Of a DNA stretch of 12,751 bases, positions 1 through 12,751 are shown piece after piece. This DNA is from Methanocorpusculum sp. (lineage in GTDB: Archaea > Halobacteriota > Methanomicrobia > Methanomicrobiales > Methanocorpusculaceae): positions 1 through 12,751 of the forward strand of contig JAFZFW010000013.1 of assembly GCA_017555685.1 (NCBI GenBank). The letters run 5' to 3'. Under the pieces are notes generated by a model. It had not been told where the DNA came from. It did not search any database and worked only from the letters and a program-made list of their open reading frames with translations. A program made the translations under genes and the position numbers. The first letter of the stretch is position 1, and each line of letters opens with the position of its first letter.

Positions 1-35
1 ATCATTAAGAATGCTTTGTCAGAACTCGAAAAGCG

Positions 36-70
36 GGAAAAAGAAAACTAACTTTTTCCAGCACTTTTTT
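36..70 (+). terminator. possible terminator of a gene upstream of the window
   Basis: An AT-rich inverted repeat has 8-bp perfect arms, GGAAAAAG (36-43) and CTTTTTCC (52-59), around an 8-nt loop, and is followed by a run of six T at 65-70. Archaeal transcription commonly ends at T-tracts. No coding sequence is visible upstream within the window, so which gene it would serve is unknown. Confidence 0.35.
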
Positions 71-300
71 CGTTTGCGGCAAGTATTCCAAACCGCATCT
101 TTGTCACACTGCAAAGCAGTCATTCTCTTCTCATTTGTCAAACAAAATATATTGAAAATTTTTCAAAATATCTGTAAATTTACAAAAATATCTCGACCGA
201 AAAAGTATCCCGATTCGTACATATTTATATGCAGAAATCCTATGATGTATTTGCAGGACTAACAAACCTGTAAAGAAAAAAGAATCATCCAGGGAACAAA
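71..300 (+). promoter_or_regulatory. AT-rich leader and promoter of the bile salt hydrolase gene
   Basis: I see no convincing gene here. A TATA box, ATATTTATAT, lies at 221-230, which predicts a transcription start near 250 and a 5' leader of about 50 nt. The leader ends with a weak Shine-Dalgarno-like AGGGA nine or so bases before the ATG at 301. Upstream of the TATA box are two perfect palindromes, TTGAAAA-T-TTTTCAA (152-166) and TGTAAATTTACA (173-184). AAAATAT recurs at 144, 165 and 185, about two helical turns apart. These could be regulator sites or intrinsically curved DNA; chance in AT-rich DNA is also possible. Confidence 0.5.
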
Positions 301-1275
301 ATGTGTACCGCCGCTGATTACCAAACTGCCGATCACTACTTCGGACGCAACCTCGACCTTGAGTACTCGTACCACGAAACCATCACGGTCACCCCGAGAA
401 ACTACCCGTTTCACTTCCGCAAAACAGCCGACATAACCTCCCACTATGCCATTGTCGGTGTTGCCTATGTCGTTGAAGACTACCCGCTCTACTATGACGC
501 GGTAAATGAAAAGGGTCTGGGGATTGCCGGCCTGAACTTTCCGGAAAACGCCGACTACAAACCGGAAATGCCGGGCAAAGATAATATCACCCCGTTTGAG
601 CTTATCCCATGGATTCTTGCACAGTGCGCAAGTGTGTCCGAAGCGGAAAACCTCCTTTCCCGCATAAATATCATCAATATCAACTTCAGTGAAACCCTCC
701 CTCTCTCCCCCCTCCACTGGATGATTGCCGACAAAGACCGCGCCATTGCCGTAGAAGCGGTCAGCGAAGGCGTAAAAATCTACAAAAATCCCGTCCATGT
801 ATTAACCAACAACCCGGCGTTTGACATGCAGCTCTTCGCTTTGAACAACTTCATGTCATGCTCGCCGAAACCACCGCAGAATTCTTTCTCTACACACCTC
901 AATCTCGAAACCTACAGTCGCGGAATGGGGGGAATCGGTCTTCCCGGAGACCTCTCCTCCCAGTCCCGGTTTATCAAAGCTGCCTTCACCCGTGCAAACT
1001 CCGTTTCGGGCACCACTGAATCGGAAAGCATCAGTCAGTTCTTCCATATCTTAGAGTCCGCAGCACAGCAGCGCGGATGTGTTGATCTGGGAGACAACAA
1101 ATATGAATATACAATCTACTCCTCATGCTGTAACACGGACAAAGGAATCTTCTACTACAAAACCTATGAAAACAGTCAGATCTCAGCTGTTGACATGCAC
1201 AAAGAAGACCTTGACTCCGCAGCACTGGTCAGCTATCCGATGATACACGGCCAGCAGATAAAAATGCAGAACTGA
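301..1275 (+). CDS. bsh: choloylglycine hydrolase / bile salt hydrolase
   Basis: This 324-residue protein belongs to the Ntn-hydrolase choloylglycine hydrolase family, which cleaves the amide bond joining glycine or taurine to bile acids. Removal of Met1 exposes the nucleophile Cys2 (MCTA), which fixes the start. The other conserved active-site residues are present: Arg16 and Asp19 in GRNLD, Asn79 in GLNFPE, Asn170 in VLTNNP, and Arg223 in SQSRF. Length and motif order match clostridial enzymes closely from end to end, including LHWMI, GLPGD and the YYKTYEN C-terminal block. There is no signal peptide, so it should be cytoplasmic. It is monocistronic, with its own TATA box upstream and a hairpin behind. 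Bile salt hydrolases are known from gut methanogens such as Methanobrevibacter smithii. Penicillin V acylase is the alternative activity, but the overall likeness favours bile salts. Codon use does not stand out from the neighbours, so any transfer is not recent. Confidence 0.9.
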   Translation: MCTAADYQTADHYFGRNLDLEYSYHETITVTPRNYPFHFRKTADITSHYAIVGVAYVVEDYPLYYDAVNEKGLGIAGLNFPENADYKPEMPGKDNITPFELIPWILAQCASVSEAENLLSRINIININFSETLPLSPLHWMIADKDRAIAVEAVSEGVKIYKNPVHVLTNNPAFDMQLFALNNFMSCSPKPPQNSFSTHLNLETYSRGMGGIGLPGDLSSQSRFIKAAFTRANSVSGTTESESISQFFHILESAAQQRGCVDLGDNKYEYTIYSSCCNTDKGIFYYKTYENSQISAVDMHKEDLDSAALVSYPMIHGQQIKMQN

Positions 1276-1303
1276 GAAAAGGGACCCTGCCTCCCCCTTT
1301 TCT
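1275..1303. terminator. hairpin between convergent genes
   Basis: The perfect 9-bp arms AGAAAAGGG (1275-1283) and CCCTTTTCT (1295-1303) flank an 11-nt loop, directly after the bsh stop codon. A T-rich run at 1320-1325 follows on the plus strand and just precedes the end of the convergent minus-strand gene. It probably ends bsh transcription and could work in both directions. Confidence 0.55.
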
Positions 1304-1323
1304 GTTCCTGTACGAACTCTTTT

Positions 1324-2073
1324 TTATTCCCGGACAATTACGTTGTCTGCTTCCGCAAACGGACTCTTCCGTAAGGAAAGCGAGAAGAGATACGGATAGT
1401 TTTCCTGCAGGTACTCCATATGCGAAAGCCACACGCGGGCAAGTGAACAGTACACTCTGCTGATATCTCCTGTCAGATGTCCGATGTCTGACTTCGGCAG
1501 GTCAGCAAATCCGTTTCTGCCGGCAAGCTCCTCGCTTAAGTGGAAGAGTGCCTGCATCAGTTCGGTGATTCTTCCATGTTCCAGAAACACCGGGTTTTCT
1601 ACTAACCGCAGCAGGAACTCATGATGCTCATCAAGGAGATTTCGCATCTCCAGGAAATCATCTTCTGCCGGCTGCAGACGGCTGCAGTGGTTTTCCAGAA
1701 TCCGGTGTGCTTCTGCGTACTCTGTTTTCGTCCAGCTTTTCTTTACATCCAGCAGTGACCGGAGGCTCGTCGATGAGGTATCGCATCGGACAAAAATCCG
1801 CAGGAGTGCCGAGCCGAACTCGGAGAAGAACAGACCGACAATCATCTTCATCTTCTCCTGCTGTTCCTTTTTCGCCCGTATGGAGAGCAGCTTGTTTAAA
1901 ATCAGCGTTACCAGAAGCACATTAATCGGCAGGAAACCGAGTGCGTTGAAGATGTAGGTTGCGGTATTGCTTGTGCCGTCGTCTCCGATGATGAGAAACT
2001 TCAGCGCATAGATGACAATACATGCCGCAATCAGAAAGAGGGAGAGTTTCAGTTCCCACGAGAACTTCTTCAA
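1324..2073 (-). CDS. two-helix membrane protein of unknown function
   Basis: I do not recognise this protein beyond its layout. Two hydrophobic helices sit at about residues 9-29 and 40-63, followed by a charged, helix-rich cytoplasmic region (RAKKEQQEKMK, then FFSEFGSALLRIF) running to the C-terminus. That gives a short membrane anchor with a soluble domain of about 180 residues. The reading frame is open up to 2127, but I place the start at the TTG at 2073, giving 249 residues. A clear GGAGG lies 7 nt before it, and this TTG overlaps the TGA of the upstream TIM-barrel gene. The upstream frame extension would lie entirely inside that gene. The pair is therefore probably one transcript with coupled translation. 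No catalytic motif is visible. Confidence 0.75.
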   Translation of the reverse strand: MKKFSWELKLSLFLIAACIVIYALKFLIIGDDGTSNTATYIFNALGFLPINVLLVTLILNKLLSIRAKKEQQEKMKMIVGLFFSEFGSALLRIFVRCDTSSTSLRSLLDVKKSWTKTEYAEAHRILENHCSRLQPAEDDFLEMRNLLDEHHEFLLRLVENPVFLEHGRITELMQALFHLSEELAGRNGFADLPKSDIGHLTGDISRVYCSLARVWLSHMEYLQENYPYLFSLSLRKSPFAEADNVIVRE

Positions 2074-2792
2074 AGAAGTGCCTCCAGTGTCTTCATGGAG
2101 GAAAGGGAAGCATCCAGAGTCTCGCACTCGAGAACCGGGCAGGAAACTCCGAACCGTTTGATGGCGGATGCGACAGCCTTCACATCAATCGTCCCTTCCC
2201 CTAAAGCTGCATGTGCATCCTTTGTTCCGTCGTTGTCATGCACATGAATGTGGACAAACGGGACGTCTAAAAATGCATCAAGCGTTCCACACTCGTTTGC
2301 GTGCCCGATGTCAAGGCAGAACGGTGTCCCGTCAATCAGACTGACATCTCCGGTGTCTTTTAAGAAAAAGTATCCCCAGTTGCCCATGTTCTCCACACAT
2401 GCGGTAACGCCTGCATCTTCCGCGTAGGCGTTGATTGCCGCAAGCGACTCCTGCAGACCGGAAACTGCCTTCTCATACTCCTCGGTGAACGCATAGTATC
2501 CCGGGTGGAACACCACGGTCTTTGCATCTGCTGCGACTGCAAGCTCGATGCTGTCGCAGATAATCTCCACTGCCGCACGGCGCATCGGCCCGAGAACGGA
2601 TGCGATGTTCACGCTTCGTGCCGGAGCATGGATGCTGTAGGTGAAGTCATGGGAGAGCAGGACTTCGGCATCTTCGATATAGTGCCTGCCGTCATTCATT
2701 ACCTCGACAAAGCGGGTATGCGGAGCAAGTGTCTCCAGTACCTCCGATAACGGGAGGCGGGAGAGACAGTGTGTGGAGAGGGAAAAGGGCAT
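2070..2792 (-). CDS. endonuclease IV / sugar phosphate isomerase-type TIM barrel protein
   Basis: This 240-residue protein has the AP endonuclease 2 (xylose isomerase-like) TIM barrel fold. Every metal-ligand position of endonuclease IV appears to have a counterpart in order: His55 (SIHAP), His96 (FHPGYY), Glu134 (VENMG), Asp161 and His164 (CLDIGHA), His181/183 (HIHVHD), Asp192 and His194 (KDAHAALGEG), and Glu222/224 (LECE). A trinuclear-type metal site is thus plausible. The family includes both DNA-repair nucleases and sugar isomerases/epimerases, and sequence alone does not separate them. It is a little shorter than typical endonuclease IV. I chose the ATG at 2792 over a TTG at 2804: a TATA-like TTTTTTAA about 30 bp upstream of the ATG suggests a leaderless message, and no Shine-Dalgarno sequence is present. 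It is followed by the coupled membrane-protein gene. Confidence 0.85.
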   Translation of the reverse strand: MPFSLSTHCLSRLPLSEVLETLAPHTRFVEVMNDGRHYIEDAEVLLSHDFTYSIHAPARSVNIASVLGPMRRAAVEIICDSIELAVAADAKTVVFHPGYYAFTEEYEKAVSGLQESLAAINAYAEDAGVTACVENMGNWGYFFLKDTGDVSLIDGTPFCLDIGHANECGTLDAFLDVPFVHIHVHDNDGTKDAHAALGEGTIDVKAVASAIKRFGVSCPVLECETLDASLSSMKTLEALL

Positions 2793-2860
2793 GATACTAT
2801 ACAATAGGGCGGGCGGGGTTAAAAAATAATCACCCGCGGACCGGTATTTCAGAAACCAGA

Positions 2861-2870
2861 TATATTTATA
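2861..2870 (+). promoter_or_regulatory. TATA box of the COG2426 gene pair
   Basis: TATATTTATA, preceded by a purine-rich BRE-like AGAAACCAGA, lies about 30 bp before the ATG at 2896. The predicted transcription start falls at or just before the ATG, and no Shine-Dalgarno sequence is visible, so the message is probably leaderless. Confidence 0.7.
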
Positions 2871-2895
2871 CTGAGAAATTCAACGTATTTAAGTT

Positions 2896-3687
2896 ATGTT
2901 GGAAGAATTACGAAAGACCCATGAGATGGCATGGCGTGCCGGTCTGCGTCTCCTGATGCTCCTTGGTCCGCTTGCGGCTTACGGGCTTCTTCTCGTATTC
3001 TTCTGGTTCGTCTATCCTCCGCAGGATGGAGCCATTTTCTCATTCAGCCCGCAGTATCTGGTCTTAATCGGCCTGCTGATTGTCTATTTAATCCCGCCGT
3101 TTGGAAAGGAAACGGTTATTCCGCTGGCATTAATCGGCGGCGAAGGGCTCATTAATCTGATTGCTGCTGCAACAGGAATCGTTCTTGATCCGGCATCCAT
3201 TACCGGTTTTCCGTTATGGGTAATTGTGCTCGGCATTGTCGGTATGGATATTGCGGTATCTGCCTTTGTCACCTTAAACTTCAACCTGCTCTTGAAAATC
3301 CCGTTTGTCGGCAACGGACTTCGCTGGATTATGCAGGGGGCAGACAATATTATCAACTCCAAACCATGGATTAAGAGCCTGTCCAGTACCGGGCTTCTGC
3401 TGTTCATGTACATCCCGTTCCAGGGTTCGGGTGCGCTTACCTGTTCGGTAATTGCCCGGCTCTTAAACTATCCGCCGGTCTTTGCAATTGGTCTGGTTAC
3501 CATCGGCAGTCTGATGTCGACGCTGAGTATCGGTCTTGGACTCTCCTCGATTCTGACACTCTGGCAGGTTCACCCGGTCTATGGTCTCCTGCTGGCTGCC
3601 GGCCTGCTGGGAATAATTGTGCTGTTAGCGCTTTCCTGGGGAAAGATTGTCTCAAAGCTCCAGCAGAAGATGAAAGTTCATGAGTGA
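2896..3687 (+). CDS. COG2426 small multidrug export family membrane protein, copy 1
   Basis: This 263-residue, strongly hydrophobic integral membrane protein belongs to the Sm_multidrug_ex (COG2426) family, judged from the motifs FGKETVIP (69-76), NFNLLLKIP (128-136) and TGLLLFMYIPFQGSGA (165-180). About six to seven membrane segments are apparent, with a first helix at about 17-39 and a last at about 231-248, then a basic C-terminal tail. The family name implies drug export, but the substrate is not established and I infer only a transporter-like role. Its stop codon lies inside the start of a paralogous gene (8-nt overlap), which carries the same three motifs in the same order. The two products probably work together. 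The leaderless promoter upstream serves both. Confidence 0.85.
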   Translation: MLEELRKTHEMAWRAGLRLLMLLGPLAAYGLLLVFFWFVYPPQDGAIFSFSPQYLVLIGLLIVYLIPPFGKETVIPLALIGGEGLINLIAAATGIVLDPASITGFPLWVIVLGIVGMDIAVSAFVTLNFNLLLKIPFVGNGLRWIMQGADNIINSKPWIKSLSSTGLLLFMYIPFQGSGALTCSVIARLLNYPPVFAIGLVTIGSLMSTLSIGLGLSSILTLWQVHPVYGLLLAAGLLGIIVLLALSWGKIVSKLQQKMKVHE

Positions 3688-4363
3688 AGGACAGCATCTG
3701 TATCACCCGGGAATCAAAATCCGTCTTCTTTTTTCGCTTGGTATTTTAGGAGTTCTCGCACTCTGGATTGCTGTGATGTATGCTGTCTTCGGCGGAGAGA
3801 AGTTCGGGATTTTTATGGGAATCTTTGCCGTATACTTTGCACCGGGATTTGGAAAGGAAAGCCTGATTCCGATTATGACTGCAGCAGGGTGCCCGCTTGC
3901 AGCTATTGTATCCGGAATTGTCATCCTGGATATGACGCTGGCAATCATTATTTCCTTCAACTTTGATCTGCTCCTGAAAATTCCTGTGATTGGGTATGCT
4001 TTGCGGTATGCAACCGATAAATCCGCAACGGCTCTGCATGACCATCCCTGGGTGAAAGGTCTGGCAGGTACGGGACTGTTTCTTTTTATGTACATCCCGT
4101 TTATGGGTTCAAGTGCGATAATTACCACGATTATCGGACGGCTTCTGTCTGTCCATCCGCGGGTCCTGCTTCCGGTTATTTTTACCGGAAGTCTCTGTGC
4201 AACGGTAACGGTTGCTGTAGGCGTTCAGGCAGTTATTGCACTCTGGTTTGCCAATCCCTGGTATGCGGTACTTGCTGTTATCGGTGTTGTGATTGCCGGA
4301 ATTCTTCTCTGGAAGCTCTGGCAGAAGTACATTACCCCGCGGTTCGCAAAGGATAGAAAATAA
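3680..4363 (+). CDS. COG2426 small multidrug export family membrane protein, copy 2
   Basis: This 227-residue paralogue of the preceding protein shares FGKESLIP (57-64), NFDLLLKIP (94-102) and TGLFLFMYIPFMGSSA (131-146). It is shorter, mainly because the stretch between the first two motifs is compressed. The ATG overlaps the upstream stop by 8 nt, and no strong Shine-Dalgarno sequence precedes it, so it probably depends on translational coupling. Copies have diverged well outside the motifs, pointing to an old duplication and possibly to a hetero-oligomer. No clear T-tract follows the stop, so some read-through into the regulator gene downstream is possible. Confidence 0.85.
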   Translation: MSEGQHLYHPGIKIRLLFSLGILGVLALWIAVMYAVFGGEKFGIFMGIFAVYFAPGFGKESLIPIMTAAGCPLAAIVSGIVILDMTLAIIISFNFDLLLKIPVIGYALRYATDKSATALHDHPWVKGLAGTGLFLFMYIPFMGSSAIITTIIGRLLSVHPRVLLPVIFTGSLCATVTVAVGVQAVIALWFANPWYAVLAVIGVVIAGILLWKLWQKYITPRFAKDRK

Positions 4364-4370
4364 AAGAAAG

Positions 4371-4380
4371 ATTATATTAT
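4371..4380 (+). promoter_or_regulatory. TATA box of the regulator-DUF371 operon
   Basis: ATTATATTAT, preceded by a purine-rich AAGAAAG that fits a BRE, predicts a transcription start near 4400. The palindromic operator at 4389-4403 therefore covers the space between the TATA box and the start site, where a bound repressor would block polymerase. Confidence 0.65.
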
Positions 4381-4388
4381 TTGAAACA

Positions 4389-4403
4389 CTTACATTATGT
4401 AAG
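4389..4403. promoter_or_regulatory. palindromic operator, CTTAC-N5-GTAAG (site 1)
   Basis: CTTACATTATGTAAG is a perfect palindrome (7-bp arms, one central base) 13 bp before the ATG of the ArsR-type regulator. A 13/15 match lies in the hsp20 promoter at 7256-7270. The form and half-site spacing match the CTAAC-N5-GTTAG site I recall for A. fulgidus HSR1. Autoregulation is inferred. Confidence 0.75.
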
Positions 4404-4416
4404 CAGGTAATGGAAC

Positions 4417-5061
4417 ATGTTTGAACAGGAACATATTGCTCAGCTCCTTGATATTCTGGGGAACCGGAACCGAAGACGCATTATTGAACTTCTCCGGTAT
4501 AAGCCATGTTTTGTTACTGAAATTTCCGACCGTCTTTTATTGAATCCGAAAGCGGTTATCGAGCACCTGGCACTGATGCAGAAGGAGGATGTGGTCTCCT
4601 TCTATCAGGATGAGAAACGGAGAAAATACTATTATCTGATTCAGGATTTCCGTCTCTCTGTTGAGATGCAGCCGAAGGATGAACAAAAAGCAGCCCCTGC
4701 TCCGGTCGAGACTGAGGAAGAACCTGCTCTTCCGCTTACCGATAAAATCATGCAGATCCGCTCTCTTCTTTCCGCCCGCGAGAAGCTTATCGAGCACCTG
4801 GAAGCAGTGGAAAAGGACATCGACAGCAAGATGGAGGAGATTATGGCAGGCGGCAGGAACGTTTTGAATAACAATATTGAAGCAGAGATTCTGCTTGCCT
4901 TAATCTACGCTCCGCTGACGCCAATCGAAATCGCTGATTCCATCGGCCGCAGTATTCCGGATGTGACGGCATCCCTTCGCTCGCTGGTGTCCAAAGGATA
5001 TCTGGAAGCATCATCCGGACGCTATTCTCTTGTTGAGCCGAAGAAGCAGGCCGCAAAGTGA
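4417..5061 (+). CDS. HSR1-like two-winged-helix ArsR-type transcriptional regulator
   Basis: This 214-residue DNA-binding protein has an N-terminal ArsR-like winged helix (about 5-75; LLDILGNRNRRRIIELL, recognition region EISDRLLLNPKAVIEHL). Next come an acidic Pro/Ala linker (85-108), a predicted coiled coil (109-143) that probably dimerises, and a second winged helix (155-207; TPIEIADSIG..PDVTASLRSLVSKGYLE). No cysteine pair or metal site of the ArsR metal sensors is evident. An AGGT 8 nt before the ATG supports the start. The palindrome in its own promoter recurs at hsp20. That arrangement, with the domain plan, suggests an orthologue of the A. fulgidus heat-shock regulator HSR1, probably an autorepressor. 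The DUF371 gene follows with a one-base overlap. Regulator class is secure; the heat-shock role is inferred. Confidence 0.85.
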   Translation: MFEQEHIAQLLDILGNRNRRRIIELLRYKPCFVTEISDRLLLNPKAVIEHLALMQKEDVVSFYQDEKRRKYYYLIQDFRLSVEMQPKDEQKAAPAPVETEEEPALPLTDKIMQIRSLLSAREKLIEHLEAVEKDIDSKMEEIMAGGRNVLNNNIEAEILLALIYAPLTPIEIADSIGRSIPDVTASLRSLVSKGYLEASSGRYSLVEPKKQAAK

Positions 5062-5486
5062 TGGAAGCAGTCGAGGTCATCCGGTGTCGCGGGCATGAGA
5101 ATGTTCGCGGAATGCATAAGAGTACGTTTGAGATTACCAAAGAAGCCGAGCTTTCCCCGCAGGGAGACTGTATTGTAGGCGTTGCCGCAGATAAGGGAGC
5201 AGCCGATTTATCGCCTAAGTTCCGGGAGCTGATGGCAAAAGAGGGCGCAAAGCTTACTGCAGTATTTTCTGCAGGCGGCATTGAGGCGGTTGTTACTGCT
5301 GACGGCGGGGCAGGAATTTCCTTAACGCATCCGACTGATCTTGTCTGGCGGCGAAGCTCGTTTGTCTGCCCGCGGACAATCGGTATCTATTCTGATACAA
5401 CCGCAGCCCTTCTTCCGCGGGAGTTAATTGAAATATTAAAAACCGGCGCTGAGATGACGGTGACGCTTACCGTCACGGTTGAATAA
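5061..5486 (+). CDS. DUF371 family protein
   Basis: This 141-residue protein matches the archaeal DUF371 (COG2090) family, recognised by RGHENV..MHKSTFEITKE near the N-terminus and GDCIVGVAADKGAADL at about 36-51. The function of the family is not known to me. It looks soluble and small, with no membrane segment and a beta-rich C-terminus (EMTVTLTVTVE). I chose the ATG at 5061, which shares a base with the upstream TGA (TGATG); a GTG immediately before it is the alternative. Such an overlap implies translation coupled to the stress-type regulator upstream, so it should share that gene's operator. A link to proteostasis follows only from this context. Confidence 0.8.
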   Translation: MEAVEVIRCRGHENVRGMHKSTFEITKEAELSPQGDCIVGVAADKGAADLSPKFRELMAKEGAKLTAVFSAGGIEAVVTADGGAGISLTHPTDLVWRRSSFVCPRTIGIYSDTTAALLPRELIEILKTGAEMTVTLTVTVE

Positions 5487-5495
5487 CTTTTTTTT
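5460..5495 (+). terminator. terminator of the regulator-DUF371 operon
   Basis: A 6-bp hairpin, GTGACG-CTTAC-CGTCAC (5460-5476), lies in the last codons of the DUF371 gene. Eight T follow at 5488-5495, just past the stop. On the other strand the A-run at 5499-5504 gives a T-tract beyond the end of the convergent deoxyhypusine synthase gene, so the 27-bp gap can serve both genes. Confidence 0.6.
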
Positions 5496-5513
5496 CTGAA
5501 AAAATTGGGGTAT

Positions 5514-6476
5514 TTATGCCCGCTTTACACCGGATGCAAGCAGGGCCGAGGTTACAATCGGCAGGGCGATGGTGATGTCGCAGAAACACTGCAGTTTTCT
5601 GGATTCCGGTTTTTCCTTACCCCAGCTGATGCCCTCCTCAAACGTACAGCCGGAAAGTCCTCCCCAGTGCGGGGCATCGGTTGTGTACTGCAGGGCAAAC
5701 TCGTGTCCGCCTAAGTAGTGGTCATGATACTTCGGGAAGATAACTTCCGTCTGCTGGATGAAGTTCTTCGGAGTTCCGCCGCCTAAGTAGATGACTCCGC
5801 TCAGTTCTCCCAGTTCTACAAACTCGGAGAGCTCATCGGCATCTGCCACCTGGTCAATAACAAGCTCTGCGCCGGCGCGTCTTGCGGCAACAAGCCCGAT
5901 GCCGATTGAGGAATCAGAGAGTGCCGGGACATGAATCGGGACACCCATCTTTGCACAGGTGCCAAGAATACTTCTGCCGTCTGGATACTCCTCATTCATC
6001 CGCTCGCCGACCAGTTTTAAGAACGCGCGGGAAGACATCGTCTGTTTGCCAAGCGCAGTGCCGAATGCCGCAACCCAATTCTCCATGGTGCAGATCTCCT
6101 TGTCGGATGCAAAGACATCATAGATTCTGTTGACTCCCTTGTTGAACAGCACTGCATCATCTGCCAGATGCGTTCCTTTATAGTGCTTAATGCCGGCATG
6201 TTCGCAGAGATCATGGAACATATTTGCGCCGGTGGATACAATTGCATCAACAAACCGGTTTTCCACTAACTGAATAATGCACTCCTGCATACCGGCAGGA
6301 ACAATAGCGCCGGAAAGACCGATGATAATCCGGATTCCCGGGGTCTCAATCATCTCCTTCCAGATCTGAAAACTCTCGCCGAGCTTTCTTCCCTGGAAGC
6401 CGGAACCGCTCATATTTTTCAGTAACTCATCCACAGAAGCTGTTGGCTTCATAGGATTTGTCGGAGTATCAAACAT
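5514..6476 (-). CDS. dys: deoxyhypusine synthase family protein
   Basis: Deoxyhypusine synthase moves the aminobutyl group of spermidine onto a lysine of translation factor aIF5A, using NAD; it acts in the cytoplasm. The 320-residue protein shows the expected order: GFQGRKLGE (27-35), a STGANMFHDL block (81-90), SDSSIG (188-193), the glycine loop GGGTPKNF (232-239), and SWGK with the presumed catalytic Lys287. Compared with the human enzyme, STGAN and SDSSIG replace TTAGG and TDGSLG, so this is a divergent branch and a related DHS-like aminobutyl transferase cannot be excluded. I chose the ATG at 6476 because a TATA-like TATTTAGT lies about 26 bp upstream, fitting a leaderless message. The frame stays open to a TTG at 6524, and an ATG at 6452 is also possible. 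Confidence 0.85.
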   Translation of the reverse strand: MFDTPTNPMKPTASVDELLKNMSGSGFQGRKLGESFQIWKEMIETPGIRIIIGLSGAIVPAGMQECIIQLVENRFVDAIVSTGANMFHDLCEHAGIKHYKGTHLADDAVLFNKGVNRIYDVFASDKEICTMENWVAAFGTALGKQTMSSRAFLKLVGERMNEEYPDGRSILGTCAKMGVPIHVPALSDSSIGIGLVAARRAGAELVIDQVADADELSEFVELGELSGVIYLGGGTPKNFIQQTEVIFPKYHDHYLGGHEFALQYTTDAPHWGGLSGCTFEEGISWGKEKPESRKLQCFCDITIALPIVTSALLASGVKRA

Positions 6477-6522
6477 GATAATAGATTTGCCGAACAGTAC
6501 TAAATAGCTGTTCGTTTGAATC

Positions 6523-6530
6523 AAAAAAAA
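6523..6530 (-). terminator. T8 terminator after the FKBP-like gene
   Basis: Eight consecutive T on the minus strand lie 9 nt beyond the stop of the FKBP-like gene. No hairpin precedes them. The tract sits about 20 bp upstream of the TATA-like element of the deoxyhypusine synthase gene, so the two genes are probably transcribed separately. Confidence 0.55.
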
Positions 6531-6538
6531 GTATTGGA

Positions 6539-7171
6539 TTAGGAAATCTGCAGGTAACCTGCAAACTTCATCTCAATCTTGTCAGTGCCGTACTGAAGGG
6601 TGAGTTCTTTGTCGTTGATTTCAGTGATGACACCGGTACGGACTGCGTATGCAAGTTCTCCGAGTTCATCAATGTACGGGAAGTCTAACTGAAGCATTCC
6701 GCCTTTCTCGAGTTTTGCAAACTCAAGACCCATCTCTTCGACATCTTCCTTGGAGTAGGTGTATTTTAATGCAGCACCGTCGAGGGTGATGGTTTTGGTT
6801 TCGCCGATGTTCATGCCGATTACTTCGGTAGAGATTGCATTCTGCTCGTTGGCATAGACCATATACGGCTTCTCAGAGTTGTCAATCGGGATGTATGCGC
6901 TCTCGTTGGTTTCGTATCCTGCGATAAATCCGCCGACAGAGGAGAAGACTGCCTTTCCTCCGACAGACATTATGTATTCAACAGCAACAGGGTTTCCTGC
7001 TTCAACTGCTCCTGCCGTGCCGTTTCCTCCAAAGAAGTTCTGGAAGTTTGCAAACGACAGAACGCACATAACAACCATAAGGACACAGAATGCGATAACA
7101 CCAATCTGCATCCAGTTGGTCTTTTTCTCCTCCGGTTTGTCACCGGCGCTTGACTTTTTCTGTACAGCCAT
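6539..7171 (-). CDS. membrane-anchored FKBP-like protein (divergent peptidyl-prolyl isomerase homologue)
   Basis: This 210-residue protein has a lysine-rich cytoplasmic N-terminus, one membrane helix (about 22-40), and an outside domain with the pattern of archaeal FKBP/SlyD-type isomerases. These carry a 'GDxVxVxY' strand (here GNPVAVEY, 59-66), a VIGMNIGETKTITL strand-turn (117-130), and a closing VRTGVITEINDKELTL segment (177-192). Typical FKBP aromatic pocket residues are hard to identify, so isomerase activity is uncertain and a chaperone-only role is possible. The ATG at 7171 fits a leaderless message from TTTATGAT (about 7196-7203). A second TATA-like ATTATATAC at 7176-7183 would start transcription inside the frame, which leaves Met21 as a less likely alternative. 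It is divergent from hsp20. Confidence 0.65.
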   Translation of the reverse strand: MAVQKKSSAGDKPEEKKTNWMQIGVIAFCVLMVVMCVLSFANFQNFFGGNGTAGAVEAGNPVAVEYIMSVGGKAVFSSVGGFIAGYETNESAYIPIDNSEKPYMVYANEQNAISTEVIGMNIGETKTITLDGAALKYTYSKEDVEEMGLEFAKLEKGGMLQLDFPYIDELGELAYAVRTGVITEINDKELTLQYGTDKIEMKFAGYLQIS

Positions 7172-7255
7172 GTGTGTATATAATTTCTCTTTCTTATCAT
7201 AAACACCTTCCCTTCTGTCTTTTACTGTGTTCAGAAAACATTTATACTTGTCACA
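7172..7255. promoter_or_regulatory. divergent promoter region, FKBP-like gene and hsp20
   Basis: On the plus strand, TTTATACT at 7241-7248 with a preceding CAGAAAACA is the probable TATA box and BRE of hsp20, placing its transcription start near 7268. On the minus strand, TATA-like elements lie at about 7196-7203 and 7176-7183 for the FKBP-like gene. Confidence 0.6.
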
Positions 7256-7270
7256 CTTACTATATGTAAG
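7256..7270. promoter_or_regulatory. palindromic operator, CTTAC-N5-GTAAG (site 2, hsp20)
   Basis: CTTACTATATGTAAG has the same 5-bp arms and N5 spacer as site 1 at 4389-4403, matching 13 of 15 bases. It starts 15 bp downstream of the start of its TATA box (18 bp at site 1), again covering the likely transcription start. It is probably bound by the regulator encoded at 4417-5061. Confidence 0.75.
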
Positions 7271-7306
7271 TCTAACAGGACAAATACCAGAATGGAGAAT
7301 ACCAAA

Positions 7307-7777
7307 ATGTCAGATATCCCATACTCATTCAGCTTCGAAACGCTTGGAAACAGCCTTGACTCTTTCCTCTCCGATGTCAGCTCCCGTGCAGTTTCTGCGA
7401 TGCCGCGCCCGGAATATGTAAAGACCACGGTCAGAAATGCCGTCCCGCGTATCTCCGGAAACTTCAATGTGGATTTAACCGAAACGGATGATGCGTTAAT
7501 CATCACCTGCGACCTTCCCGGATTTACCAAAGAGGATGTATCGGTCAAACTGATTGACGGACGGACGGTTGTCATCCATACTGCCGTCTGTACTGAATCA
7601 CTTTCTGCCGGCGTCTATCACTTACGCGAGAGACGCTCTGCTTCCGGAAAGCGTATTATCCGTCTCCCTGAAGAGGTCACTGCAGAAGGAGCAAAAGCAG
7701 TCTTCAGACACGGAGTCTTAGAGCTTGTCCTGCTTAAAGTACAGCCGGACGAAGGAGAAAGTATTCCGGTTGAATAA
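7307..7777 (+). CDS. hsp20: Hsp20 / alpha-crystallin small heat-shock protein
   Basis: Small heat-shock proteins form cytoplasmic oligomers that hold unfolding proteins for refolding without using ATP. This one has 156 residues: a variable N-terminal arm (1-50), an alpha-crystallin domain (about 52-144) with the signature DLPGFTKEDVSVKL and the conserved GVL at 136-138, and a C-terminal I-x-I/V motif, IPV, at 153-155 that normally docks on a neighbouring domain. I chose the ATG at 7307 because GGAG lies 9 nt before it. An in-frame ATG at 7292 would add MENTK but has a poorer Shine-Dalgarno sequence. The promoter carries the same operator as the ArsR-type regulator gene, so heat-inducible derepression is likely. 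A T-rich terminator follows. Confidence 0.93.
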   Translation: MSDIPYSFSFETLGNSLDSFLSDVSSRAVSAMPRPEYVKTTVRNAVPRISGNFNVDLTETDDALIITCDLPGFTKEDVSVKLIDGRTVVIHTAVCTESLSAGVYHLRERRSASGKRIIRLPEEVTAEGAKAVFRHGVLELVLLKVQPDEGESIPVE

Positions 7778-7797
7778 ACCCTCTCCCCGCCCCCCTC

Positions 7798-7812
7798 TTT
7801 TTTTCATTTTTT
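7798..7812 (+). terminator. T-tract terminator after hsp20
   Basis: Runs of seven T (7798-7804) and six T (7807-7812), split by CA, begin 20 bp after the hsp20 stop codon and follow a C-rich stretch. No stem is visible, as is common for archaeal T-tract termination. Confidence 0.6.
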
Positions 7813-7840
7813 CCGATATTTACCGCAGAGTATGAAGAAG

Positions 7841-7850
7841 ACATATATGT
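7841..7850 (+). promoter_or_regulatory. TATA box of the flippase-methyltransferase operon
   Basis: ACATATATGT, itself palindromic and preceded by the purine-rich GAAGAAG, lies about 30 bp before the ATG at 7876. The predicted transcription start is within a few bases of the ATG and there is no Shine-Dalgarno sequence, suggesting a leaderless message. Confidence 0.6.
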
Positions 7851-7875
7851 CGACAGATACCATAATTGAGATACT

Positions 7876-8910
7876 ATGGATAAAGGACAGAAAAAGCTGC
7901 TGGTGATATCACTGGGTATCAGTCTTGCTGTTCTTTTTGCTGTTCTTATCTTCACTATTGATGCAGAGACGCTTACTGCGCTGAAAAGCTGTATGCCGGC
8001 ATTTCTGATTCTTTCCCTTGCGATGCATGTTGTCTCTCTGCTCTTCTGGGCGCTGCGGATTAAGCTGATGTGCCGTTCGCTTGGATACAAAATCCGGTTT
8101 TTCCACTGTCTCAATCTGGTCTGTTCCAACACGTTTATCGCTTCGATTACTCCGTCCCAGATAGGAGGCGAGCCGGTCCGCGTGTATGAGCTCACGAAAG
8201 CCGGCATGCAGGGCGGGGACGCAACAGCGGTTGTTATCATGGAGAGGGTCTTTGACGGAATTATTCTGGCGGTCGGGACGATTCTTTGTGTGTTTGCGCT
8301 TGGTGTTTTCTTCCAGGATCTGGCACTGCCGGATATCTGCATGATTTCCGCTTACACTGCCGCTGTCGTCTTCTCCGGTCTGGTTCTGCTGTTCTTTGTC
8401 TTTGCCCGCAACCCGAAGTGGGGCTATGCGCTGATGGGCAGAATCTCGAACCTCCTTTCCCGAAGAGACAGCATGGAGAAAACGCAGGCACGATTCCGCC
8501 AGTTTGAGGGATATGTTGCACAGTTCTATACCACTGTTGCCCAGTTCGGCGGAAAAGCACGAAGCGGTATCTTCTTCGGTCTGCTTTTCACGGCTCTCTA
8601 CTGGACAAACGAGTTTATCATTGCGTACTTTATCTGCACCGGATTAGGAGTCGAGCCTACCGCAGCACTCTTCCTGCTTTCGCTTATCTTCCAGATCTTA
8701 ATCACGGTCATCTTAATGATCCCGATTACGCCGGGCGGAGTCGGTATCGCCGAGCTTTCCCTGGGCGGATTTTATGCATTAATCATCCCGACTGCAATCG
8801 TCGGCATCTTTGTGCTGATTTACCGGTTCATCTTCTACTACTTCAACCTCATCGTGGGGTTCATTGCGAGCATGCTGATTGTACGCCGCGAAGCACATAC
8901 GGAGACATAA
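7876..8910 (+). CDS. AglD/LPG synthase-type flippase-like membrane protein, copy 1
   Basis: This 344-residue polytopic membrane protein belongs to the lysylphosphatidylglycerol synthase transmembrane (UPF0104, PF03706) family. The two family signatures are TPSQIGGEPVRVYEL (92-106) and TPGGVGIAEL (285-294). About eight hydrophobic helices are visible, with a basic cytoplasmic loop (about 178-230) in the middle. No MprF-type aminoacyl-transferase domain is attached. Family members are linked to flipping or modifying lipid-linked substrates and include the membrane part of the archaeal glycosylation protein AglD; the substrate here is unknown. It is the first gene of a three-gene operon with a paralogue and an FkbM methyltransferase, so a role in surface glycolipid or glycan assembly is inferred. 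Confidence 0.85.
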   Translation: MDKGQKKLLVISLGISLAVLFAVLIFTIDAETLTALKSCMPAFLILSLAMHVVSLLFWALRIKLMCRSLGYKIRFFHCLNLVCSNTFIASITPSQIGGEPVRVYELTKAGMQGGDATAVVIMERVFDGIILAVGTILCVFALGVFFQDLALPDICMISAYTAAVVFSGLVLLFFVFARNPKWGYALMGRISNLLSRRDSMEKTQARFRQFEGYVAQFYTTVAQFGGKARSGIFFGLLFTALYWTNEFIIAYFICTGLGVEPTAALFLLSLIFQILITVILMIPITPGGVGIAELSLGGFYALIIPTAIVGIFVLIYRFIFYYFNLIVGFIASMLIVRREAHTET

Positions 8911-9960
8911 ATGGACGCGAAATACAAAAAACTCCTCTGGATATCAATCGGCCTCTCACTTGGCATCATGCTGCTGGTTATCCTTCTCACGTTTGATGAG
9001 GAGACACTGGTTGCGCTGAAGAACTTTGACTACCGGTTCCTGCTGATTGCTTTTGGTTTACACCTGCTTGCCATCGTCTTCTGGGGTATGCGGATTGTCG
9101 CACTCAGCCGTTCGCTTGGCTACAAAGTGCCGCTTCGCCACTGCGTTAATATGGCAGCAGCCGGCCAGCTTCTGGCAGCGATTACTCCGTCGAACATCGG
9201 CGGAGAGCCGATTCGCGTTCATGAGCTCTACAAGGCAAAGGTTCCGCTTGCGGATGCAACCGCTATTGTCCTGGTCGAGCGTCTGTTAGAGGCGTTCCTG
9301 CTGGTGCTTGGCGTCATCGGCGGTATGACAGCGTTTTCCCTGGTGTATCAGAACGGCGAGATTCCCTCAGCTCTGATTACCGCGGCATGGATCGGGACGG
9401 CGTTTTTTGTCGCTATCCTGCTGGTGCTGCTGCTGATTATGCGAAAACCTGCTTCGGTTAAGAAGTGGGGTTCGGCGATTCTCAACTTCTTCGGACGGAA
9501 GATGCGGGCGGAACGCCGCGAAAAACTCCTGAATGACATGACCGGCGGTATCGACCAGTTTTACGGAACGTTCCGTCACTTCGCCGGAAAGGACGGCAGA
9601 ATCGGTCTGATTCTGGGTCTTTTGCTTTCGCTTGCCTTCTGGACCTGCGAGTATGCGATTGCTTCGGTTATCATGATGGGCTTAGGTTATGAGCCGCACA
9701 TTCTGCTCTCGATTATCTTCCAGATGATTATCGCCGTCATTCTGATGGTGCCGCTTACGCCGGGCAGTACGGGTGTTGCCGAGCTGTGCTATGCGGGATT
9801 CTACTCGCTGATTCTGCCGACGGCAGTTATCGGGCTCTTTGTGGTTCTGCTTCGGGCTATCCTGTACTACTCGAATCTGATTATCGGCTTTATTGCGTCA
9901 TTTATCATCGTCAAGCGTGAAGCGAAGAACCAGACGGTACTGACCGGCGATGAGAACTAA
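8911..9960 (+). CDS. AglD/LPG synthase-type flippase-like membrane protein, copy 2
   Basis: This 349-residue paralogue of the preceding protein aligns with it from end to end. Its first signature, TPSNIGGEPIRVHEL, falls at exactly the same residues (92-106), and TPGSTGVAEL lies at 283-292. The ATG follows the upstream stop with no gap, and GGAG lies 6 nt before it inside the last codons of copy 1, so the start is well supported. Divergence is moderate throughout: the membrane signatures are kept while the mid-protein loop (about 180-230) has changed, which suggests separate substrates or a heteromeric partner. The last 11 nt overlap the FkbM-type methyltransferase gene. Confidence 0.85.
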   Translation: MDAKYKKLLWISIGLSLGIMLLVILLTFDEETLVALKNFDYRFLLIAFGLHLLAIVFWGMRIVALSRSLGYKVPLRHCVNMAAAGQLLAAITPSNIGGEPIRVHELYKAKVPLADATAIVLVERLLEAFLLVLGVIGGMTAFSLVYQNGEIPSALITAAWIGTAFFVAILLVLLLIMRKPASVKKWGSAILNFFGRKMRAERREKLLNDMTGGIDQFYGTFRHFAGKDGRIGLILGLLLSLAFWTCEYAIASVIMMGLGYEPHILLSIIFQMIIAVILMVPLTPGSTGVAELCYAGFYSLILPTAVIGLFVVLLRAILYYSNLIIGFIASFIIVKREAKNQTVLTGDEN

Positions 9961-10774
9961 TCCTTCGTTTTTTGATACTCTGCGCTACCGGCTGACCGTT
10001 GCCGGCAGGACAGAGGACTTTTACCGTGTGCAGTACGAGCGTATGTTTCGCCGGCATCATGTCAGAAAGGATGACTGTCTGAAAGTCGGCCCCCTTCGTC
10101 TGCCGCGTTTGTCGCATGCGGATTTTCCGACCCGCGAGGAGGCGTACTATGCGATGGAGATTGGCGACATTCTCTATCCGGCGCTTCTCGGCTCCTTCCG
10201 CTATGTGGATGAAGGTCCGTATGAGTGGGGCGATGTCAGAATCGAAGCAGGCGATGTGGTGTTTGACTGCGGAGCGAACTTAGGGCTTTTCTCGATTCTT
10301 GCGGCATACCGCGGGGCCGAGGTCTATGCGTTCGAGCCGATTTCTGCGGCACGCACCGAGCTTCGCCGGACGCTTGATATGAATCCGGAACTCAAAGACC
10401 TGGTGCATGTGGTGCCTGCCGCGCTTTCGGATAGCGAGGGAACTGCGGAGTTTACGGTACTTGACGGGACGCTGGTTGGATCGTCGATGGTTCTGCAGCA
10501 GCAGGGAAGAAAGGAGACTGCACGGCTGACAACTGTTGATGCGTTCTGTGCGGCAGAGGGAATCTCTCCGGACTTCATTAAGGCAGACATCGAAGGCGCC
10601 GAGCGGCAGATGATGGCAGGAGCAGTTGAGACGCTTGCTTCTTCTGCGCCGAAGATTGCTATCTGTACGTATCATTTCAAAGATGACGCAGAGGTTCTGC
10701 GGGGAATTATCAAAAAGGCAAACCCGGAGTACCGGATTTCTGAAAAGTGGAAGAAGCTCTACGCAAAGCGGTAA
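9950..10774 (+). CDS. FkbM family SAM-dependent methyltransferase
   Basis: This 274-residue, probably cytoplasmic protein is a class I SAM-dependent methyltransferase of the FkbM family. The SAM-binding motif I is VVFDCGANLGLFS (103-115), the acidic end of the second strand is AFEP (127-130), and the FkbM-specific block is FIKADIEGAERQMMAGA (209-225). A roughly 100-residue N-terminal extension with no recognised motif precedes the Rossmann core. FkbM enzymes methylate hydroxyl groups of sugars, polyketides or glycans; the acceptor is not evident here. Linkage to two flippase-like genes (11-nt overlap with the second) suggests a lipid-linked or surface glycan substrate. No convincing Shine-Dalgarno sequence precedes the ATG, so coupling to the upstream gene is likely. 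The next in-frame Met is residue 32. Confidence 0.85.
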   Translation: MRTNPSFFDTLRYRLTVAGRTEDFYRVQYERMFRRHHVRKDDCLKVGPLRLPRLSHADFPTREEAYYAMEIGDILYPALLGSFRYVDEGPYEWGDVRIEAGDVVFDCGANLGLFSILAAYRGAEVYAFEPISAARTELRRTLDMNPELKDLVHVVPAALSDSEGTAEFTVLDGTLVGSSMVLQQQGRKETARLTTVDAFCAAEGISPDFIKADIEGAERQMMAGAVETLASSAPKIAICTYHFKDDAEVLRGIIKKANPEYRISEKWKKLYAKR

Positions 10775-10781
10775 AAAAAGA

Positions 10782-11321
10782 TTAAAGATTTCCTGCCTCT
10801 GCAAGAACAGATTTGAGGCAGGAAATCTTTTCGCCTGGAGTATTGCAGGCATTGAGTGCGTTTACGATGCCGATTCCCTGCATAACACCACTGCTGTTAT
10901 CTGCTGCTGATTTGATGGGGATTTCCTTGCAGTATGCCGAGCGGATACTTACACAGTACTGTGACCAGCCATCTCCGCTGATAGTTGACTCTTTCATCTG
11001 GAAGCAGTATACGGCTGCTGCGGCATTTCCTGCGCAGTCCACGCCGAGTGCCCAGATGGTATAGAGGTCTTCTCCGCGAAGCAGTGCAGTGTAGGTGTTC
11101 TCCGCTGCCTGTGCGAATGCAGCGTTGGATGCCCATTTCACCTCAACATCCGGATTGAAGTTTTCCGGGACTGCCGTTACTTTTACAAAGACACTGTCGT
11201 CGAGTTCTTCATAGCTTAGTTTGACTGCCGGAATCTCTTCTGCTGCTGCGGGGACAGCGGCACAGCAGAGAAGCAAAAGAACGGTAAATACGGCAGCGGT
11301 AAGCTTTCTTATACTGCTCAT
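10782..11321 (-). CDS. small secreted cysteine-rich protein of unknown function
   Basis: I do not recognise this protein. From the ATG at 11321 it has 179 residues with a clear signal peptide: MSSIRK, then a hydrophobic core (about 8-25), and probable cleavage after AAA near residue 27. The exported part carries six cysteines (96, 106, 123, 131, 159, 168), an even number that would allow three disulfides. The first half (EELDDSVFVKVTAVPENFNPDVEVKW) looks like a beta-sandwich-type strand pattern, but I cannot name a domain. The frame is open upstream to 11468, but that extension is arginine/serine-rich, lies within the NOB1 gene, and would bury the signal peptide. A TATA-like AGTATTAAG about 29 bp upstream may give it its own promoter, in addition to read-through from prs and nob1. 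Confidence 0.75.
   Translation of the reverse strand: MSSIRKLTAAVFTVLLLLCCAAVPAAAEEIPAVKLSYEELDDSVFVKVTAVPENFNPDVEVKWASNAAFAQAAENTYTALLRGEDLYTIWALGVDCAGNAAAAVYCFQMKESTISGDGWSQYCVSIRSAYCKEIPIKSAADNSSGVMQGIGIVNALNACNTPGEKISCLKSVLAEAGNL
10784..10830. terminator. bidirectional intrinsic-type terminator, 16-bp stem
   Basis: Perfect 16-bp arms lie at 10784-10799 (AAAGATTTCCTGCCTC) and 10815-10830, around a 15-nt loop. On the plus strand the stem follows the methyltransferase stop and ends in TTTT. On the minus strand it is followed by a T7 tract at 10773-10779. It lies inside the last codons of the convergent secreted-protein gene. Confidence 0.75.
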
Positions 11322-11347
11322 GTACTCTCTGTTGTCCTGCAGAACGC

Positions 11348-11842
11348 TTAATACTTCTGCCGTTTCGGTTTTGCCGCTGCTTTTTCTGTTCCCCGCTTCT
11401 TTGGTGGAGCGCCGCAGATCGGACAGTCTGCTTCGCCTGCCGGAATCTCTGCCCCGCATCCGGAGCATATGAGCTTCCAGACCTTTTTCTTTGCGGTTTT
11501 GGAAAGCAGGCTTTTTACCGGGATTTTCAGGTGTCGGCAGACATTCTGTACCGCAAAGTCTCCGGAGACCACGGTACCTCCCGAGGCAAGAGCGAAGGCG
11601 ATGACTGAGATGTCGGTGTCTGATAACACCCGCAGGTCTCCGGACTTTTCGGCCGCGGATTTTACTGCGGCAGTTTCAGCCGGTCCTGCCCCGCCGATTT
11701 TCAGCCCCTCAGCGCTTAGTACTTCAAAGCGCATCTTTGAGACATGGTCACGGATTTCGTCAGCAACTTCAGCCGTTGTCCAGAGGTCTCCCTCCAAGCG
11801 GTTTTCGGCGAAAAAAAAGGAAGCATCCAGAATATACTGCAT
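11348..11842 (-). CDS. nob1: NOB1-type rRNA maturation endonuclease (PIN domain plus zinc ribbon)
   Basis: Archaeal NOB1 cuts the precursor of 16S rRNA at its 3' end during small-subunit assembly. This 164-residue protein has the full layout: an N-terminal PIN nuclease with acidic metal-binding residues Asp6 (ILDAS), Glu29 (VADEI), Asp75/Asp77 (LSDTDISVIAFA) and Asp95 (SGDFAVQN), then a rubredoxin-like zinc ribbon, Cys126-x2-Cys129 and Cys140-x2-Cys143, and a basic tail (PKKRGTEKAAAKPKRQKY) suited to RNA binding. The ATG is 2 nt after the PRPP synthase stop, so the two genes should be cotranscribed and coupled. A toxin-type VapC is unlikely because of the zinc ribbon and the absence of an antitoxin gene. 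Confidence 0.9.
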   Translation of the reverse strand: MQYILDASFFFAENRLEGDLWTTAEVADEIRDHVSKMRFEVLSAEGLKIGGAGPAETAAVKSAAEKSGDLRVLSDTDISVIAFALASGGTVVSGDFAVQNVCRHLKIPVKSLLSKTAKKKVWKLICSGCGAEIPAGEADCPICGAPPKKRGTEKAAAKPKRQKY

Positions 11843-11844
11843 GC

Positions 11845-12690
11845 TTATTTTCTGATTGCGTCAGCGATGATTCCGGATGCAGAGAACTTGGAGGATGCAC
11901 GCTCGATGGTGTCGGAGTTTGCAACGTCTGCAAGTCCGCCCTGCATGAGCTTGATGTATCCGCCGGAGGCAAATACTCCGTGAACACCTGCTGCACGAAC
12001 GGATTTTGCTCCCTGCTCCATTAACATGCTGGCAGCAAGAGCCATAGATCCGCCGGTTGCGATAATGTCGTCGACGATAACACAGTCTCTTCCTGCTGCA
12101 TCAAGGTGCTTTGGTGCCATCCTGACTTCGGAGCCGGAAAGGCGGGTCTTGTCTAAGTGGTCGCAGTCCCATCCGAACGGTGCGGAGACACTCTTTGCAA
12201 ACTCCCATGCGCCAATGTCCGGGGATAAGATGAGCGGGTTTTCGATTGGCTGAGTCTGGATGTATGCGCCGATTTCCGGTGCGACGTTGAGGTTTTCTGC
12301 CGGGCAGCGGAAGTGGTTTAAGACGGACGGGTCGTGGATGTTTACGGTAAAGACGCGGGATGCACCTTCGGATAATGCGCGGGCAAGTGCGCGTGCGGAG
12401 ATCGGCTCTCCTTCATTGAAGCGCTTGTCCTGTCTTGCGTATCCCATGTACGGAAGTACCAGGGTTACATCTTTTCCTTCGCAGGCGTCCATTAAGAGCA
12501 TGACCTGAAGGGCGGTTGTGGTATCAACAGTACTTGCAACAACGACCATTTCGTCATCAAGCTCTTCTACGCGCACATAGAGTTCTCCGTCCGGGAAGGT
12601 GGTATACTTGACGTTGGAGAGTCCGCATCCGAGTTTCTGGGCTGTACGTGCCGCAAGCAGCTGACTTTTTTCTGTATAGATGACCTTCAT
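11845..12690 (-). CDS. prs: ribose-phosphate pyrophosphokinase (PRPP synthase)
   Basis: PRPP synthase transfers pyrophosphate from ATP to ribose 5-phosphate, giving the precursor for nucleotides, histidine and, in methanogens, cofactor and pterin synthesis. The 281-residue protein is typical of the short archaeal form. It has FPDGELYVR (32-40), the flexible-loop-region motif YMGYARQDKRFNEGEPISA (81-99), the metal-site region VNIHDPS (116-122; bacterial enzymes have DLHA here), and the PRPP-binding loop CVIVDDIIATGGS (203-215). The start at 12690 gives the expected N-terminus, MKVIYTEKSQ. There is no clear Shine-Dalgarno sequence. It leads the operon with nob1 and the small secreted protein. 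Confidence 0.95.
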   Translation of the reverse strand: MKVIYTEKSQLLAARTAQKLGCGLSNVKYTTFPDGELYVRVEELDDEMVVVASTVDTTTALQVMLLMDACEGKDVTLVLPYMGYARQDKRFNEGEPISARALARALSEGASRVFTVNIHDPSVLNHFRCPAENLNVAPEIGAYIQTQPIENPLILSPDIGAWEFAKSVSAPFGWDCDHLDKTRLSGSEVRMAPKHLDAAGRDCVIVDDIIATGGSMALAASMLMEQGAKSVRAAGVHGVFASGGYIKLMQGGLADVANSDTIERASSKFSASGIIADAIRK

Positions 12691-12699
12691 ATTTCTGCA

Positions 12700-12745
12700 G
12701 ATACTATCTTAATACTGAAAGTACTTAAATTATAATCAAGTACAA
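12700..12745 (-). promoter_or_regulatory. probable promoter of the prs-nob1 operon with inverted repeat
   Basis: On the minus strand, TTATAATTTA (about 12725-12734) is the best TATA box and would give a start near 12705. A second candidate, AGTATTAAG (about 12708-12716), would give a leaderless message. GTACTT (12721-12726) and AAGTAC (12738-12743) form an inverted repeat that frames the first TATA box. Confidence 0.45.
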
Positions 12746-12751
12746 ATAATA

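Follow-up and report, generated by a model that had tools for sequence, protein, structure and literature searches.

We have analyzed a 12,751-nt stretch of Methanocorpusculum sp. DNA (contig JAFZFW010000013.1 of assembly GCA_017555685.1, positions 1 to 12,751; below, the window), in which the palindrome CTTAC-N5-GTAAG precedes both the gene of an ArsR-type regulator of 214 amino acids (aa) and the small heat-shock protein gene hsp20. Sequence comparison makes it very probable that the 214-aa protein is a Methanocorpusculum repressor of the HSR1/Phr group, acting via this palindrome on itself and on hsp20. In this gut methanogen the HSR1/Phr heat-shock repressor circuit, a switch known from a hot-spring relative, seems to exist in a version specific to the lineage; the circuit is known in kind, while the symmetric CTTAC/GTAAG operator, the candidate target DUF7123 and a candidate structured RNA appear to be new. 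Related species seem to have brought more genes, and perhaps a small RNA, under its control.

A Pair of Operators in the Window

The following features, all on the forward strand, constitute the predicted regulatory pair:

4371..4378, +, TATA-like box of the regulator gene, ATTATATT, starting 18 bases before operator 1
4389..4403, +, operator 1, CTTACATTATGTAAG, ending 13 bases ahead of the regulator ATG
4417..5061, +, two-domain ArsR-type regulator, 214 aa, Phr/HSR1-like (HTH_5 at residues 18–61, TrmB/MarR-like at residues 154–209)
7241..7248, +, TATA-like box of hsp20, TTTATACT, starting 15 bases before operator 2
7256..7270, +, operator 2, CTTACTATATGTAAG, ending 21 bases ahead of the hsp20 ATG
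7292..7777, +, small heat-shock protein of the Hsp20 family, 161 aa (PF00011, E 2.4e-10)

Both operators have perfect half-sites, and the two bases of 15 at which they differ lie in the spacer. The two palindromes are thus as described in a preliminary description of this DNA, with exact coordinates and the correct 13/15 identity; its placement of them behind a TATA-like box, one ahead of the regulator gene and the other ahead of hsp20, also holds, as does its statement that the window has no further copy, since a pattern scan of the whole window yields no third exact match. Matches with up to two mismatches (six in the window, compared to 3.2 ± 1.9 in shuffles) are close to the shuffle level and are therefore not considered as evidence.

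Distribution of the Motif in the Genus

The assembly containing the window (1,104,072 bases in 168 contigs, about 69% complete) has just two exact copies of CTTAC-N5-GTAAG, those before the regulator gene and hsp20. All 17 copies with one mismatch were read: 16 are situated inside mechanically listed open frames, and the remaining one, at C8:3351, is in the promoter of a gene encoding a DUF7123 protein. In the set of 25 Methanocorpusculum genomes, several of which are incomplete assemblies, 68 exact sites are found, and 57 of them could be assigned, by our reading of coordinates and contexts, to six promoter classes: regulator (15), hsp20 (12), DUF7123 (12), a second DUF7123 gene (6, one of which, in G035, was assigned by sequence and spacing alone, as the contig ends there), cdc48 (2) and an intergenic RNA candidate (10). 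Among the other 11 sites, five fall inside open frames of 109–891 residues (L048, L085, L090, L092, L095), two were left unread (G034:C215 and G037:C221), and four have no clear class. Of the latter, L033/L097 and L043 are intergenic, L044 lies in a short frame, and L034/L096 is 69 bases ahead of a long frame. The L033 site (G020:C8:84154) has a TATA-like stretch in front of it and may represent another RNA locus; no gene was assigned to the exact sites L043 (G031:C19:679) and L044 (G032:C17:11290).

We further scanned 110-base promoters, defining a site as at least nine of the ten half-site bases. Sites are present in 23 of 25 regulator promoters, in all 21 hsp20 promoters and in 16 of 22 cdc48 promoters, usually with one mismatch in the latter, and these counts are not independent, the promoters being related by descent. 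Dinucleotide-shuffled promoters reach the same threshold in 0.1–0.4% of cases (class means). The expectation that a genome-wide scan would lead to chaperone, thermosome, proteasome or Cdc48 genes holds for hsp20 and cdc48, along with the regulator itself, and fails for the thermosome: none of the 28 thermosome promoters read in the genus (47 rows listed) has a site, and we reject it as a target. Partial hsp20 matches (L077, L078), cdc48 rows at contig ends or in fragments (L120, L121, L123), a second Cdc48-like gene (L124–L128 and six rows without a locus) and three of 33 DUF7123-like rows, which lack a locus, were left out of the promoter test. For L149–L157 the match begins inside the gene, and no meaning is attached to their distances from the start codon; in L089, at a contig edge, the start was set by hand.

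The hsp20 gene, matched in 22 of the 25 genomes, is located within about 3.7 kb of the regulator gene in only four of them (G000, which is the assembly of the window, G026, G031 and G033); the distance is 7–8 kb in G032 and G038, and elsewhere the two genes are farther apart or on different contigs, with the site being kept. As hsp20 is mostly distant from the regulator gene, the sharing of the site is not explained by neighborhood. In the assembly of the window, cdc48 is represented by no more than a fragment of a cdc48-like gene where a contig ends, leaving hsp20 as the one gene of the hsp20–cdc48 pair that can be tested there.

Besides the relatedness of the promoters, several observations weigh against the proposed circuit. 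The motif is not in excess by count: with at most one mismatch it occurs 19 times in the assembly of the window, compared to 38 for the reversed control pattern (which has one exact copy there), and the 68 exact sites of the genus compare to 57 for the reversed pattern. Genome-wide enrichment is hence rejected, and with counts near background only the placement of the motif is special; taken as a set, it is not over-represented, yet most of its exact sites belong to the six promoter classes. Furthermore, six of 22 cdc48 promoters lack the site, and the regulator sites of G021 and G038 are degenerate (CTTAA-N5-A[T/C]AA[T/C]). The automatic choice of TATA boxes is noisy: its distance to the site is 11–21 bases for 20 of the 25 regulator promoters and 18 of the 21 hsp20 promoters, and 8 or 32–34 bases for the others. 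Finally, the regulator scores 56.8 bits with Phr_regulator, its best NCBIfam model, against a curated cut-off of 320 bits; since this is far under the cut-off, the protein is not Phr in the strict sense.

Operators in the Sister Genus and in Other Families

Within the order the regulator is widespread, with a match in 212 of 232 genomes. Outside the genus, 53 regulator promoters from six families were read, and 45 of them have at least nine of ten bases of CTWAC-N5-GTWAG; the site in the regulator's own promoter thus extends from Methanocorpusculum (23/25) to other genera (45/53), with A or T at the middle half-site base. The left half-site is CTAAC in 47 of these 53 promoters, the right one has GTAA in 35, and 30 combine the two in an asymmetric site. 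The preliminary description had presented the half-sites of the window as one base off those of Archaeoglobus fulgidus HSR1, CTAAC-N5-GTTAG, with the spacing kept. The spacing is indeed kept, and the change of half-sites is not so simple, given the asymmetric sites of the 30 outside promoters.

Exact CTAAC-N5-GTTAG is found in eight of the 53 promoters, namely five of the six sister-genus promoters and three of the eight from the Methanoculleus family, and beyond this table, also before the regulator genes of G012 and G001. In the sister genus it precedes the regulator gene in G012, G013, G015, G017, G018 and G019, and hsp20 in G014, G015, G017, G018 and G019; one more hsp20 gene preceded by it is in G010 from family f2. 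All six hsp20 proteins encoded behind this motif match PF00011. On the contrary, the 25 genus assemblies, several of them incomplete, have no match to CTAAC-N5-GTTAG, and the HSR1 half-sites in their strict form are accordingly not those of Methanocorpusculum. The regulator and hsp20 promoters therefore differ in step between the sister genera, as they would if a single protein recognized the two of them; in most genus members these promoters are not neighbors. The suggestion of a diverged HSR1 circuit in a methanogen is supported by both the site shared by the two genes and the HSR1 motif before their counterparts in the sister genus.

In the Methanoculleus family, CTAAC-N5-GTTAG is also seen inside a longer palindrome approximately 15–21 bases before the gene of a 124–131-aa membrane protein, at 16 of 19 loci (L200–L204, L206–L215, L217–L220). 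This longer palindrome is perhaps a site of another regulator.

The Regulator and Its Recognition Helix

The N-terminal part of the regulator (residues 18–61) matches the ArsR wing-helix domain HTH_5 (E 2.8e-11), and the C-terminal part (residues 154–209) has a TrmB/MarR-like wing-helix match. The nearest solved relative, 2p4w (E 1.3e-10), which we take to be Phr of Pyrococcus (furiosus), is alignable over residues 5–90. Similarity to the ArsR-type wing-helix of Phr/HSR1 is thus seen with HTH_5, with 2p4w and, below its cut-off, with Phr_regulator. The label AF1298 is not seen among the best 120 of 1676 relatives of the regulator, and HSR1 was compared by its motif and description. Four Methanocorpusculum isolate records contain proteins that are 84–88% identical to the regulator over the whole length; a fifth record is a 25-residue piece at a contig edge.

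In the stretch that we assigned to the recognition helix from the ArsR fold, all 24 genus members read have NPK[A/T]V, and all 53 other proteins, SPK[A/V][V/L]. The Asn of the genus, at position 43, may stem from a single event, and the change from Ser to Asn is one difference possibly contributing to the operator change. As its sole cause it is not established: G216 and G081 carry Ser yet have CTTAC left half-sites, and the preference may thus depend on more than this residue.

Metals are common signals for ArsR proteins, and the operator might be real with a signal other than heat, such as a metal, redox or other stress, hsp20 being regulated as a general stress gene. The N-terminal domain does match the metal-sensing ArsR model NF033788, at 49.6 bits with a cut-off of 55, but Phr_regulator outscores it. 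No metal-handling gene has been assigned among the 68 exact sites of the genus (two of them unread and four unclassed), and the targets, hsp20, cdc48 and the regulator itself, are the set given for HSR1/Phr in excerpts of PMC9133787 and PMC5852551. We consider such a signal unlikely.

DUF7123 as a Candidate Target

Genes of DUF7123, a small protein with a weak match to a helix-turn-helix model (PF23438), have the site in all 23 promoters read in the genus, and the second DUF7123 gene, in six of seven (at least nine of ten half-site bases). Where the start was placed, the site is 4–5 bases before the ATG; in the assembly of the window (G000:C8:3100-3365; L135, L160) it is TTTACTAGAGGTAAG, with one mismatch, 5 bases before the ATG. 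DUF7123 is a possible target in the genus, being either a recent recruit or a case where the right half-site is partly a Shine-Dalgarno sequence. This overlap, together with the distance of 23 bases between the TATA-like box and the site in 20 of 23 promoters, makes it a weaker candidate. In the Methanoculleus family none of the 30 DUF7123 promoters read (37 rows) has the site, and DUF7123 as an ancestral target is not supported.

The near-identical sites at all DUF7123 promoters of the genus and the helix-turn-helix match could mean that the sites belong to another factor, e.g., the DUF7123 protein, with the ArsR-type protein merely being one of its targets. We regard this as still more improbable than a non-heat signal: the site stays with the ArsR-type gene across six families, and in the Methanoculleus family, where DUF7123 promoters lack it, seven of eight regulator promoters have it at the threshold of at least nine bases of ten. 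Moreover, the DUF7123 right half-site overlaps what we read as a probable Shine-Dalgarno sequence, GAGGTAAG, and the TATA spacing differs from the 17–18 bases observed in 16 of 16 cdc48 promoters. A chance coincidence of two palindromes in an AT-rich promoter stretch, to which the near-background frequency of the exact motif in the 25 genomes might point, has next to no probability given the concentration of exact sites in six promoter classes, the low rate in shuffled promoters, the presence of the HSR1 motif before the regulator gene and hsp20 in the sister genus and the retention of the site where hsp20 is distant from the regulator gene.

An Intergenic Structured RNA Candidate

In ten genomes of the genus a TATA-like box and the exact operator, mostly CTTACTAWTAGTAAG, precede approximately 150–330 bases without a recognized conserved frame; with G022 and G028, where the operator has one mismatch, this makes 12 of 25 genomes, and in G031 the operator is decayed. 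The candidate loci in these relatives are L079–L082, L086–L088, L091, L093 and L255–L258. Single-genome frames reach 79 codons (in G025), frame conservation having been judged informally. Alignment between groups of these sequences is poor, and G037 stands alone, so that common descent of all of them is not established; the downstream neighbor in G022 and G028 resembles, by eye, that of a group of six related sequences.

All 13 sequences, with limits chosen by eye, fold better than shuffles (z from –2.7 to –5.8, 60 shuffles each). One group, the six related sequences, was tested for compensatory changes. Two hairpins at the 3' end, defined by the RNAalifold consensus of the alignment on which they were then scored, are paired in 98% of cells, and both sides are altered in 7 of their 17 pairs, compared to 2.1 in shuffles (none of 500 as high). 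The assembly of the window has no clear homologue of the candidate and no match to the gene that flanks it in close relatives, but contains one weak 60-base match without an operator; in G026, which has the flanking gene, no operator was found in the stretch read. Assignment to an RNA family was rejected, as the two matches with E values of at most 1 concern a microRNA family, score far under its gathering threshold and lie away from the RNA.

The candidate RNA contains C-rich stretches. A first count of anti-Shine-Dalgarno words, picked after looking at the sequences, gave 40, compared to 7.3 in shuffles; in a fairer test with permuted cores, 178 of 3000 permutations were as high for the 13 sequences; with 11 representatives the number was 245 of 3000. 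Composition may thus explain the signal, and we do not claim an anti-Shine-Dalgarno function. That a small structured RNA of the genus is likewise under the heat-shock repressor, so that heat would induce it beside Hsp20 and Cdc48, seems to us about as likely as not.

Other Genes of the Window

The genes adjoining the regulator and hsp20 are as follows:

2896-3687 and 3680-4363, two adjoining membrane proteins, small and multi-drug export-like (PF06695, with a score under the cut-off for the second)
5058..5486, +, DUF371 protein, immediately following the regulator gene
5514-6524, deoxyhypusine synthase, on the strand opposite to the regulator and DUF371 genes
6539-7171, protein without a Pfam match, on the opposite strand, like deoxyhypusine synthase

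The DUF371 gene is perhaps cotranscribed with the regulator gene. The second membrane protein gene stops 25 bases ahead of operator 1.

Comparison With Known Systems and the Proposed Circuit

The published systems are compared here from excerpts of the papers cited. The site bound by HSR1 of A. fulgidus (AF1298), CTAAC-N5-GTTAG, lies ahead of the HSR1 gene, which forms an operon with hsp20 (PMC9133787); this is the motif given in the preliminary description. Like HSR1, the system of the window has a palindrome with a 5-base spacer before the regulator gene and a link to hsp20, and the half-sites in the sister genus are identical to those of HSR1. The differences are the CTTAC/GTAAG half-sites in Methanocorpusculum, the organization of its hsp20 and cdc48 genes as separate units with their own sites, unlike the HSR1 operon, and the additional candidate targets.

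Phr, in turn, recognizes a 29-bp element (TTTA, TGGTAA, AAAA), has hsp20 as a target and blocks polymerase at the start site (PMC9133787). It resembles the regulator of the window in the alignable N-terminal wing-helix and, by prediction, in a site overlapping the start and in hsp20 as a target; it differs in the 29-bp element, compared to the 15-bp palindrome here, and in its C-terminal part, unmatched by sequence, whereas the window regulator ends in a second wing-helix (TrmB/MarR models). HSR1 and Phr belong to the same orthologous group and act on hsp20 and cdc48 (PMC5852551); the repressor-release mechanism is also described in PMC10746257. According to PMC9133787 (2022), they are the only two heat-shock regulators described from archaea. 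One more HSR1-family regulator of a methanogen, AMET1_0853 of Methanonatronarchaeum (arCOG01684), is raised at high temperature together with Cdc48; its operator is not described in the part of PMC5852551 available. In open-licence literature, among the matches listed, we found no description of the operator in Methanomicrobiales, of its in-step difference from the sister genus or of a heat-shock RNA in Methanocorpusculum.

Modeled on these reports and fitting the geometry of the promoters, the proposed mechanism is as follows. A dimer of the regulator would bind the CTTAC-N5-GTAAG sites ahead of its own gene and of hsp20, and most relatives would have a further binding site before cdc48, usually with one mismatch. 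Counted from the first base of each TATA-like box, the two sites of the window lie 18 and 15 bases downstream, approximately at the expected transcription start, and the bound repressor would keep RNA polymerase out. Heat or unfolded protein would release it, yielding Hsp20, Cdc48 and more repressor, which would then shut the set again in a negative feedback loop. We infer here the binding by the 214-aa protein, the repression, heat as the signal and the autoregulation.

Between the sister genera, the operator is shown to differ in the same way before two separate genes, and the predicted targets make up a testable heat-shock regulon in mesophilic methanogens. An archaeal heat-inducible RNA candidate is also indicated; if the repressor does control it, this regulatory RNA possibly acts on translation through exposed C-rich stretches.

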